From Halorubrum distributum JCM 10118 (GTDB lineage Archaea; Halobacteriota; Halobacteria; Halobacteriales; Haloferacaceae), in the NCBI RefSeq assembly GCF_000337335.1, contig NZ_AOJN01000055.1, forward strand, positions 1-64,000: a DNA stretch of 64,000 nt, given 5' to 3'. The position numbers and the translations under genes are program-made. The notes beneath the pieces were generated by a model. The model ran no database searches, was not told where the DNA came from, and saw only the letters and a list, made by a program, of their open reading frames with translations. Shown in pieces: positions 4,317 through 40,323 of this stretch (its first letter is position 1; each line of letters opens with the position of its first letter).

Positions 4317-6446
4317 ATGAGTTGGCAAGCGGCGGAACGAGCGTTCACGGACGACGCGGTCGCCCGGGAAACGCTCTCCGAGATGTTCGAACGCACCGCG
4401 GAGCGACACGCTGACCGGATCGCGCAGCGGTACAAGGGGGGGATCCACGACCGGTCGCTCGTCGCCGACGGGGTCGTTCCGGAGGCGCCCGCGGGCGAGT
4501 ACGCCGACCTGACGTACGCCGAGATGCGCGGGATCGTCCGGAACCTCGCCGCGGGCTTCCGCGAACTCGGCGTCGACGACGACACGCGGGTGGCGATGTA
4601 CTCGCAGACGCGCATGGAGTGGGCCCAGACAGACTTCGCGGCGCTGGCCGCGGGCGCCGTCGTGACGACGGTCTACGCCTCCTCGTCGCCGAGGCAGTTG
4701 CGGTACCTGCTGGAGGACCCCGAGGCGACCGTCGTCGTCGCCGAGAGCCGCGAGATGCTCGAGGACGTACTCGCGGTGCGCGGCGACCTCGAACACGATC
4801 TCGACGCGATCGTGACCGTCGACGACGTCGACACCGACGAGATATCGACCGCGGACGTCGGTGTCGACGCCGACGCGCTCGACGACGGCGCCCTCGACGA
4901 CGTGTACACCCTCGGCGAGGTCCACGAGCGCGGCGCCGACGCGTTCGACGAGGCGACCTACGAGGGGTGGATCGACGCGGCCGACGTCGGCGACCTCGCC
5001 AGTCTCATCTACACCTCCGGCACCACCGGGAAGCCGAAGGGCGTCCGCCTCACGCACGCGAACTTCCGCGACAACGTCTCGCAGTGTTACCGTCGGTTCG
5101 CCGACCGACCCGACCGCGACCCGGGGGTACCCGGTATCTCCGCGGAGACGACCACCCTCTCGTTCCTCCCGCTGGCGCACGTCTTCGAGCGGATGGCGGG
5201 CCACTACATGATGTTCGCCGCCGGCGCGACGGTCGCGTACGCGGAGAGCCCCGACTCGCTCCGGGAGGACTTCGGGCTGGTGCGCCCGACGACGACGACC
5301 AGCGTCCCGCGCGTCTACGAGAAGCTGTACGACGCGATCCGCGAACAGGCGGGCGAGTCGCCCGTGAAGGAGCGCATCTTCGAGTGGGCGGTCGGCGTCG
5401 GCCGCGCGCACCACGAAGCCGACGACCCCGGGGCCCTGCTCGACGCCAAGCGCGCGGTCGCCGACCGGCTCGTCTTCTCGTCGGTCCGGGACGCGATCGG
5501 CGGCAACGTCGACTTCTTCATCTCGGGCGGCGGGTCGCTGTCGGCCGAGCTGTGCGCGCTGTACCACGCGATGGACCTCCCGATCCTGGAGGGGTACGGG
5601 CTGACGGAGACGTCGCCGGTGATCTGCGTCAACCCGCCCGAGCGGCCGCAGGTGGGGACCATCGGCCCGCCGGTCGTGAACACAGAGATCGCGATCGACG
5701 GCTCCGTCGTGGGCGAGGAGGTCGCGGACCTGGCCGGCGACGTGGGCGAACTCCTCGTCCGCGGCCCGCAGGTGACGGACGGCTACTGGAACCGCCCGGA
5801 CGCGACCGCGGAGGCGTTCGTCGACGCGGACGACCTCCCCGACGACGTCGTCACCGCCGGGACCCCGGCCGACGAGCGCGTTGGCGTCGACGGGGAGGGA
5901 TCCGACGACGCGGACGACGACAGGGCGGCCGAAGACGCGGCGCCGGCCGCCGCGGAGCCGTGGTTCCGCACCGGCGACATCGTCCAGCTCAGGCCGGACG
6001 GGTACGTCGCCTTCCGCGAGCGCGCCAAGCAGCTGCTCGTGCTCTCGACCGGGAAGAACGTCGCCCCCGGCCCCATCGAGGACCGCTTCGCCGCCAACGA
6101 GTTCGTCGAGCAGTGCGTCGTCCTCGGGGACGGCCGGAAGTTCGTCTCCGCGCTCATCGTGCCGAACTTCGAGAAGATCGCGGCGTGGGCCGACGCCGAG
6201 GGGATCGACCTGCCCGACGAGCACGCGGCGATCTGCCGCGACGACAGGGTCCGCGAGCGGATTCAATCGGAGGTCGACCGCGTGAACGAGGAGTTCGAGT
6301 CGTACGAGAAGATCAAGCAGTTCCGACTCGTCGAAGAGGAGTTCACCGAGGACAACGACCTGCTCACGCCGACGATGAAGAAGAAGCGGCGGAACATCTT
6401 AGACCGGTTCGCCGACGAGGTCGAACTGATCTACGAGGAGGACTAA
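4317..6446 (+). CDS. Long-chain acyl-CoA synthetase (AMP-forming)
   Basis: A 709-residue adenylate-forming enzyme that activates fatty acids to acyl-AMP and then acyl-CoA in the cytoplasm. Residues 232-242 are the P-loop-like YTSGTTGKPKG. FLPLAHVFERMAG, GYGLTETSPVI and WFRTGDIVQL follow (the Asp contacting ribose), and the C-terminal swivel domain contains KNVAPGPIEDRF. The family is usually about 600-650 residues. The extra length is a very acidic Ala/Asp-rich insert (about residues 510-545) just before the TGD motif. A long open frame on the opposite strand is a codon-bias shadow. Confidence 0.9.
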   Translation: MSWQAAERAFTDDAVARETLSEMFERTAERHADRIAQRYKGGIHDRSLVADGVVPEAPAGEYADLTYAEMRGIVRNLAAGFRELGVDDDTRVAMYSQTRMEWAQTDFAALAAGAVVTTVYASSSPRQLRYLLEDPEATVVVAESREMLEDVLAVRGDLEHDLDAIVTVDDVDTDEISTADVGVDADALDDGALDDVYTLGEVHERGADAFDEATYEGWIDAADVGDLASLIYTSGTTGKPKGVRLTHANFRDNVSQCYRRFADRPDRDPGVPGISAETTTLSFLPLAHVFERMAGHYMMFAAGATVAYAESPDSLREDFGLVRPTTTTSVPRVYEKLYDAIREQAGESPVKERIFEWAVGVGRAHHEADDPGALLDAKRAVADRLVFSSVRDAIGGNVDFFISGGGSLSAELCALYHAMDLPILEGYGLTETSPVICVNPPERPQVGTIGPPVVNTEIAIDGSVVGEEVADLAGDVGELLVRGPQVTDGYWNRPDATAEAFVDADDLPDDVVTAGTPADERVGVDGEGSDDADDDRAAEDAAPAAAEPWFRTGDIVQLRPDGYVAFRERAKQLLVLSTGKNVAPGPIEDRFAANEFVEQCVVLGDGRKFVSALIVPNFEKIAAWADAEGIDLPDEHAAICRDDRVRERIQSEVDRVNEEFESYEKIKQFRLVEEEFTEDNDLLTPTMKKKRRNILDRFADEVELIYEED

Positions 6447-38064: not shown

Positions 38065-38229
38065 GGCGGACGTACGGTCCGATCCGACTCGAAGGTTCGG
38101 GTCGCACGGAACGCGTTCACACGCGAGACCCGGTCGGCAGGCCGCGATCGAACCAGCAACATGATCCGCCAAACCCGTTGAAAGTTCATTTAGAAAATTT
38201 TTTCTCGCTGATGATTGGTTTATGGTAGC

Positions 38230-40323
38230 ATGGGTACTACTGGCAAGATATGCTGTCGCGTCGTGGACGGTGACGACCGGCCCCTGGCGGGTCGGGTCGT
38301 GGTCGGGGAGCGACGGGGCGGCGACGGGGACCGGATCGGCTACTGGACGACCGGCGACGACGGGGAGTTCGTCCTCGATGCGGACGGCGGCGTCGACGTC
38401 GACGACGTCTCGTTCACGGTTCGGAACCCCGCCGGCGGGGGCGACACCGAGCCGGTCCGGGGGCGAGACCGGCCGGAGGGGGGCGAGACGACGCTTCGCC
38501 TGACGGTGAATGCGCACAGCGTCGCGATCCACGGCGGGACCGAACACCGGGGGATGAACGACGCGGCGTGTACGGCGGCGGGTCCCGTCAGGAGCCATCG
38601 GTTCCACACGCAGTTCCCGGGGCTCGACCCGTACGACCGCGACGAGGACCTGCTCCGGACGCTCGGCGGCGCCGACGGCGAGGCGGGCGCGCCGATGATG
38701 GAGTCCCCGGACGACCCGGTCGGCGACGCCGACACACCGGCCGGCTACGGCATCTTCGGCCAGTTCGTCGACCACGACATCACCTTCGACCCGACCTCGG
38801 ACATCGACCGGCGCAACGACCCGGCGGCGCTGCGAAACTTCCGGACGCCGGCGCTCGACCTCGACTCCCTGTACCGGACGAACGCGGAGGCGGCGCCGTT
38901 CCTCTACGACCACGAGACGGACGAGCGCAAGCTGCTCACCGGCGAGGCGGCCGCGCCCGACGCGGAGGACGGCGGCGGCCTCTCGGGGCTCCCGGGGACC
39001 GACCTCCAGCGGAACGATCAGGGGGTGGCGCTGATCGGCGACCCGCGTAACGACGAGAACGTCGTCGTCTCCCAGCTCCAGCTCGCGTTCGTGAACTTCC
39101 ACAACCGCGTCGTCGACCACCTCCGAGGCCCGGGCTCCGACCTTGTCGAAGAGGGCGAGTCCGTCCTCGAAGCGGCGCAGCGGCTCGTCAGGTGGCACTA
39201 CCAGTGGGTCGTGCGCCACGACTTCCTGCCGCGGATCTGCGACCGATACGTCCTCGACGACATCGAGGAGCGCGGCCGACAGCACTTCGTCCCGCCGGGC
39301 CGCACGCCGGCGATTCCCGTCGAGTTCGGCGGCGCCGCCTACCGCTTCGGTCACAGCATGATCCGTCACGCGTACGACGTCAACGACGAGGTCGGCGAGG
39401 TGCCGCTGTTCCCGACCGGAGCCGGGGGCGGGCGGAACCTCCGCGGCGGGCGCCCGGTCCCGAGCGACCTCGTCGTCGACTGGTCGCGCCTGCTGGACAC
39501 CGGCGACGGCGACTACCAGCCCGCGCGGAAGACGGAGCCGCTCCTCGCGCCGACGCTGTTCGACCTGCCGATCTCCGGGGACACCTCGCTCGCCGTCCGG
39601 AACCTCCGCCGCGCGAAGGCGCTCGGGATCCCCTCCGGACAGGACGTCGCCGCGCGGATGGGGTACGATCCGATCCGGAACGAGGCGTTCGGCGAGGACT
39701 CGCCGATCATGAAGGTGCTCCGGGCGCACGGCCGCGGCGCCGACCCCGACTCGCCGCTGTGGTACTACGTGCTCGCCGAGGCGGAGTACCAGCAGGACGG
39801 GGAACGCTTGGGCGCGGTCGGCAGCCGGATCGTCGCCGAGACGCTCATCGGGCTGATCGAGGCCGACGAGACCGCGTACCCGAACGCCGCGCCCGACGAC
39901 TGGGAGCCGAGCCTCCCGCAGCCGACCCCGACCGAGGGGTACACGCTCGCCGATATCACCGAGTTCGCGGCGGAGGCGAACCCGGACGGACTCGTGATCG
40001 ACGCCGTCGACGCCGGTCCCGGAAGCGACGTCGGCGACGCGGCGGGAGACGTTCTCGACGAGTCGGTGACGCTGCGGAACGCCGCGGACGACCCGATCGA
40101 CCTGACCGGCTACGTCATCGACCTCGACGGCCAGCGGGGCGACCTCCCGGGCGCCACGCTCGGTCCCGACGAGACCCTGACGGTCCACGTCGGCGCCGGC
40201 ACGGACACGTCGACCGACCACTACCTCGGACGGGGCGCGCCCGTCCTCGACGACGAGGGCGAGGTCGTCGCCGTCTGCGGCCCCGACGGCGAGCGCTCGA
40301 CGAGGCGACGCTACGTCGGGTGA
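38230..40323 (+). CDS. Animal-type haem peroxidase with C-terminal lamin-tail-like domain
   Basis: A 697-residue protein. Residues 1-95 are a beta-rich domain (CCRVVDGDDRPLAGRVVVGE). Residues about 110-600 are an animal-haem-peroxidase domain. The haem-ester Asp and distal His lie in YGIFGQFVD181H182DITFD, FVNFHNRVVDHL parallels the family's HN motif, and the proximal His is in AAYRFGH375SMIRHAYDVN. Residues about 610-690 (DESVTLRNAADDPIDLTGYV, LPGATLGPDETLTVHVGAG) match the lamin-tail fold. Peroxidases of this superfamily oxidise halides or organic donors with H2O2. No signal peptide is visible, so location is uncertain. Confidence 0.85.
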   Translation: MGTTGKICCRVVDGDDRPLAGRVVVGERRGGDGDRIGYWTTGDDGEFVLDADGGVDVDDVSFTVRNPAGGGDTEPVRGRDRPEGGETTLRLTVNAHSVAIHGGTEHRGMNDAACTAAGPVRSHRFHTQFPGLDPYDRDEDLLRTLGGADGEAGAPMMESPDDPVGDADTPAGYGIFGQFVDHDITFDPTSDIDRRNDPAALRNFRTPALDLDSLYRTNAEAAPFLYDHETDERKLLTGEAAAPDAEDGGGLSGLPGTDLQRNDQGVALIGDPRNDENVVVSQLQLAFVNFHNRVVDHLRGPGSDLVEEGESVLEAAQRLVRWHYQWVVRHDFLPRICDRYVLDDIEERGRQHFVPPGRTPAIPVEFGGAAYRFGHSMIRHAYDVNDEVGEVPLFPTGAGGGRNLRGGRPVPSDLVVDWSRLLDTGDGDYQPARKTEPLLAPTLFDLPISGDTSLAVRNLRRAKALGIPSGQDVAARMGYDPIRNEAFGEDSPIMKVLRAHGRGADPDSPLWYYVLAEAEYQQDGERLGAVGSRIVAETLIGLIEADETAYPNAAPDDWEPSLPQPTPTEGYTLADITEFAAEANPDGLVIDAVDAGPGSDVGDAAGDVLDESVTLRNAADDPIDLTGYVIDLDGQRGDLPGATLGPDETLTVHVGAGTDTSTDHYLGRGAPVLDDEGEVVAVCGPDGERSTRRRYVG

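Follow-up and report, generated by a model that had tools for sequence, protein, structure and literature searches.

Some members of the genus Halorubrum carry an intact, constrained, accessory gene whose product, a member of the peroxidase-cyclooxygenase superfamily, is probably a haem peroxidase that works in the cytoplasm and is equipped with non-catalytic adaptor domains. The gene lies in the window analysed here, a stretch of 64,000 nucleotides from Halorubrum distributum JCM 10118. It encodes a protein of 697 residues whose nearest named match is found on a contig of Halorubrum sp. Atlit-26R (91% protein identity). The gene boundaries agree exactly with those in the initial annotation, and the features are as follows.

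38177 to 38203, forward strand: conserved TATA-like block GTTGAAAGTTCATTTAGAAAATTTTTT, putative promoter
38230 to 40323, forward strand: haem peroxidase gene, 697 amino acids, ATG at 38230, stop at 40321-40323
38230 to 38517, forward strand: N-terminal beta-sandwich domain, residues 1-96, transthyretin/CarboxypepD_reg-like
38518 to 39975, forward strand: haem peroxidase domain, residues 97-582, PF03098, with Q178, D181, H182, D183, calcium loop T206/D210/D212, R273, E276, H375 and N458
39976 to 40320, forward strand: lamin-tail domain (LTD), residues 583-697, identified by PF00932, profile search, and AF2 with Foldseek
40321 to 40323, forward strand: stop codon of the peroxidase gene

The central domain had been described as an animal-type haem peroxidase, and both profile and fold searches bear this out. 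In a Pfam scan of the protein, PF03098 (An_peroxidase) matched with E=2e-16 and 60 bits against a curated cut-off of 25, while NCBIfam gave no match for the protein. The AF2 model of the whole protein (pLDDT 83.2, pTM 0.75) has the mainly helical fold of the myeloperoxidase (MPO) and lactoperoxidase (LPO) type. Foldseek matched this model to a cyanobacterial peroxidase (8s6c, E 2.7e-16), to MPO (6e-13) and also to LPO. At full length the TM scores were modest, at 0.43 relative to the query length and 0.55 relative to the target, in part because the whole three-domain model served as the query.

When 56 homologues from archaea and bacteria were aligned, Q178, D181, H182, R273, E276, H375 and N458 proved invariant. 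The Asp181-His182 pair and the proximal His375 are where the initial annotation placed them, and the features expected of a PF03098 member (distal Gln..Asp-His, catalytic Arg, and proximal His with its Asn) are all present. From the MPO numbering together with the motifs in PMC4420034, we take these residues to correspond to MPO Gln91, Asp94, His95, Arg239, Glu242, His336 and Asn421, respectively. The calcium-loop positions are T206, D210 and D212. In three of the four proteins that consist of a peroxidase and an LTD (L112, L113 and L128), DHE replaces DHD in the distal motif, which puts Glu in place of Asp183, the presumed calcium ligand.

Both haem-ester residues are conserved, and the haem is likely ester-linked to D181 and E276. 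The position of MPO Met243, the residue that forms the sulfonium link in myeloperoxidase-type chloride peroxidases, is occupied by Asn277; thus, the third haem link of MPO is not expected here. Efficient chloride oxidation by an enzyme with Asn277 is unlikely, and by analogy it should resemble lactoperoxidase. We propose that H2O2 would oxidise the haem iron with the help of distal His182, Arg273 and Gln178, while proximal His375 would be hydrogen-bonded to Asn458 and the haem esterified to Asp181 and Glu276. The resulting Compound I would then oxidise a small reductant such as bromide, iodide, thiocyanate, a phenol or another organic molecule. The transthyretin-like and lamin-tail domains would act as non-catalytic adaptors that place the enzyme on a partner, which may be DNA, membrane or another protein.

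Molar chloride makes the cytoplasm an unusual place for an enzyme that oxidises halides and speaks against routine halide oxidation, and the substrate may be something other than a halide. The protein might instead be a peroxidase or oxygenase of secondary metabolism that couples phenols or oxygenates fatty acids without any halide chemistry, and alpha-dioxygenases and cyclooxygenases, which belong to the superfamily, are indeed weaker Foldseek matches of the AF2 model. We consider this unlikely, as true peroxidases carrying both haem-ester acids head the structural matches, E276 is kept, and the gene has no biosynthetic cluster and no conserved neighbour. Manganese oxidation, as carried out by MopA of alphaproteobacteria, is highly improbable. 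Bacterial manganese oxidisers do employ enzymes of this superfamily (PMC6247904). However, MopA-type enzymes are long peroxicins with haemolysin-type repeats and PERCAL calcium motifs, whereas the Halorubrum protein, at about 700 amino acids, lacks the PERCAL pattern and has no haemolysin-repeat Pfam match.

For the C-terminal region, the initial annotation had proposed a lamin-tail domain and had named structure prediction as the check on its fold. A separate AF2 model of the region (pLDDT 80.6) passed that check: all 15 PDB matches found by Foldseek at E<=1e-3 are lamin A/C, B1 or B2 tails, with TM up to 0.73 and, for the best match, an rmsd of 2.3. Additionally, lamin tails made up 13 of the 16 PDB matches in a profile search with the LTD region (best E 0.0017). 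PF00932 matched residues 583-695 with E=8e-8, scoring 33.1 bits in the protein scan and 36.7 bits in the genome scan, just below and above the cut-off of 34.3 bits, respectively; the orthologues L090 and L092 exceed it with 36.0 and 52.9 bits. The Ig-like LTD fold is shared with lamins, with the haloarchaeal ComA-like metallo-beta-lactamase/LTD lipoproteins and with the ExeM nuclease. The haloarchaeal metallo-beta-lactamase-linked LTDs are 31-38% identical to that of the peroxidase, and in an unrooted tree the LTDs of peroxidases separate from those of the metallo-beta-lactamase lipoproteins. In contrast to these relatives, the Halorubrum LTD is fused to a haem peroxidase and has neither signal nor lipobox; no peroxidase appears among the LTD partners that PMC6085458 lists for prokaryotes. 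Proposed functions of LTDs are membrane association (PMC6085458, PMC5118699) and, in halophilic DNases, DNA binding (PMC4486849). Elsewhere, genome G043 (L104/L146) contains an open frame of 111 residues in an unrelated neighbourhood that is 76% identical to LTD residues 648-688; it is possibly a relic or a separate LTD gene.

The N-terminal beta-rich module noted previously is also recovered. In the AF2 model it forms a sandwich of eight strands, with pLDDT mostly 75-90, and hhalign gave 95.6% probability when its profile was compared with the N-domain profile of other peroxidases from haloarchaea. Of the 56 aligned proteins, five matched CarboxypepD_reg, at best with E 1.3e-4, and one matched TTR-52 weakly, with the individually shown relatives falling below the curated cut-offs for these families. 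Because the window protein has no CarboxypepD_reg or transthyretin profile match of its own, we refer to this domain only as transthyretin/CarboxypepD_reg-like.

The window protein has no visible signal peptide, transmembrane segment, hydrophobic N-terminus, twin-arginine motif or lipobox. The top hydropathy over 18 residues is 0.31 within the first 60 residues, in agreement with the earlier remark that no signal peptide can be seen. Likewise, no obvious export signal was found in the orthologues or bacterial relatives examined. By comparison, the two strongest other LTD proteins of the same genome each have a signal and a lipobox (LLAGC, FLAGC), which agrees with the ComA-like lipoprotein of PMC5118699. 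A cytoplasmic site is the best reading of the sequences. Two points count against it. Proteins without signals can leave cells by lysis or by unknown routes. Additionally, most of the prokaryotic LTDs described so far belong to proteins that are secreted or associated with membranes (PMC6085458, PMC5118699).

The initial annotation suggested an extracellular haloperoxidase. Such an enzyme would leave the cell by an unrecognised export route and turn brine halides into hypohalous acid against competitors, while the LTD would hold it at the surface or on extracellular DNA. Gln178, which is conserved, corresponds to a position that has been connected with the binding of halides in this superfamily (PMC4420034), both the animal and the long bacterial enzymes of the superfamily are secreted, and known haloarchaeal LTDs are found on lipoproteins and extracellular DNA enzymes (PMC5118699). 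However, no Sec, Tat or lipobox signal is visible in the orthologues, and a hidden one upstream has little room, since the frame is open for only 5 further codons 5' of the ATG at 38230. The protein has no RTX-type Pfam match or PERCAL motif, its short bacterial relatives also lack obvious signals, and no export gene is a conserved neighbour. We therefore regard an extracellular haloperoxidase as rather unlikely. Of the earlier interpretation, the peroxidase, the lamin-tail fold, the N-terminal beta module and the rarity of the fusion are all supported, and the extracellular haloperoxidase is not.

The rarity of the fusion is apparent from its distribution. Within the class, 23 of 392 genomes encode a PF03098 protein, and the complete order of N-domain, peroxidase and LTD was seen only in Halorubrum, in 12 of 53 genomes. 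The other 11 PF03098 genomes of the class have partial orders: seven encode an N-domain with a peroxidase and four a peroxidase with an LTD. No LTD was detected in the bacterial homologues fetched and scanned, which stop soon after the catalytic domain. The N-domain and peroxidase proteins (L111, L115-L119, L131) have a related N-domain and are about 38-44% identical in the peroxidase; unlike the Halorubrum protein, they have no LTD and fall in a separate clade. In the peroxidase tree, the Halorubrum proteins and the peroxidase and LTD group are sisters (100/100), with the N-domain group next, and all archaeal sequences form one clade against the bacterial ones (99/98). This latter support is from the tree without the Rhodothermaceae sequence L059, which had joined the archaeal group on a long branch (1.64) in a first tree and was therefore left out.

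A single archaeal clade beside bacterial single-domain enzymes suggests one acquisition from bacteria, and the gene is apparently bacterial in origin. The simplest history would be one bacterial acquisition, early presence of the N-domain, and one gain of the LTD in the ancestor of Halorubrum and the peroxidase and LTD group, after which that group lost its N-domain. The short single-domain bacterial peroxidases are 35-47% identical to the Halorubrum protein, share its catalytic residues and also have no obvious signal peptide, but those examined lack both the LTD and the N-terminal transthyretin-like domain. They probably are the 'short peroxicins', family 5 of PMC4420034, and cd09819/cd09821 in PMC3396595. 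One gammaproteobacterial homologue (L008, 5219-6742) has, in place of the transthyretin-like domain, an N-terminal stretch resembling a beta/gamma-crystallin motif. The mammalian lactoperoxidase, eosinophil peroxidase and myeloperoxidase (family 1) have the fold, the distal and proximal residues, the Asp and Glu haem-ester residues and the calcium loop in common with the Halorubrum protein. It differs from them in its low identity (~15% in the structural match), its lack of an export signal, Asn277 at the position of MPO Met243, and its extra beta domains.

All three domains are under purifying selection, which is strongest on the peroxidase: dN is lower than dS in each, and peroxidase-domain dN/dS relative to the window gene is about 0.09-0.39 depending on the species, with usually higher values in the flanking domains. 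Where Halorubrum loci were retrieved together with long flanking regions, the gene in most cases occupies a fixed chromosomal site, with enolase-superfamily, DUF502-like and PHP-domain proteins upstream and an MFS transporter downstream; L005 and L144 are partial exceptions. No partner gene is shared across the neighbourhoods of the 11 other haloarchaeal loci. In one haloarchaeal genus (L134, L135), the peroxidase and LTD gene adjoins, and is convergent with, genes for cytochrome bd oxidase-like subunits; as these are restricted to that genus, they were rejected as conserved partners.

At the corresponding site of Halorubrum genome G028 (L145, about 5900-6260), the promoter and N-domain are joined straight to the last codons, the peroxidase and LTD being gone, which points to their deletion between two short stretches of similar sequence. 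This remnant also has a frameshift in a G run and lies between intact PHP and MFS genes. Together with the patchy occurrence, this deletion indicates that the peroxidase gene is dispensable, yet it is under selection in the genomes that have it. KatG is also encoded in the genome from which the window comes, so general H2O2 removal would not depend on the LTD-fused peroxidase. While patchiness and the G028 remnant might point to a decaying or non-functional gene, this is very unlikely: the frame is open in 12 species with every active-site residue kept, the promoter is conserved, and dN is below dS throughout.

The block GTTGAAAGTTCATTTAGAAAATTTTTT is near-invariant across 11 Halorubrum orthologues, while the flanking DNA diverges, and we infer that it is the promoter of the peroxidase gene. 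Its TATA-like core lies ~40 nt 5' of the ATG; the leader would thus be short or almost missing, in keeping with a short-leader transcript that starts at the ATG at 38230. The block sits in the divergent gap 38066-38229 between the peroxidase and PHP-domain genes and could serve or regulate both.

The literature searched contained no account of a myeloperoxidase-superfamily enzyme from an archaeon, and no paper on a haloarchaeal (including Halorubrum) haem peroxidase of this superfamily or on a peroxidase-LTD fusion. Taken singly, both domains, catalytic and lamin-tail, are of known kinds; what is new is their combination, the absent export signal and the graded set of relatives. In its most specific form, the cytoplasmic reading would make the protein an intracellular, covalent-haem, (pseudo)halide-oxidising peroxidase tethered by its LTD to DNA or membrane in a molar-salt cytoplasm. 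We think this quite improbable; if true, an archaeon would be generating an oxidant deliberately and at a chosen site, and a lamin-like tail would serve as an intracellular anchor outside eukaryotes. More broadly, this union of a peroxidase with a lamin-tail fold offers a tractable system for studying the role of the LTD where there is no nucleus and the behaviour of such an enzyme at molar chloride concentrations. Related haloarchaea with partial architectures provide natural controls for domain-deletion tests.
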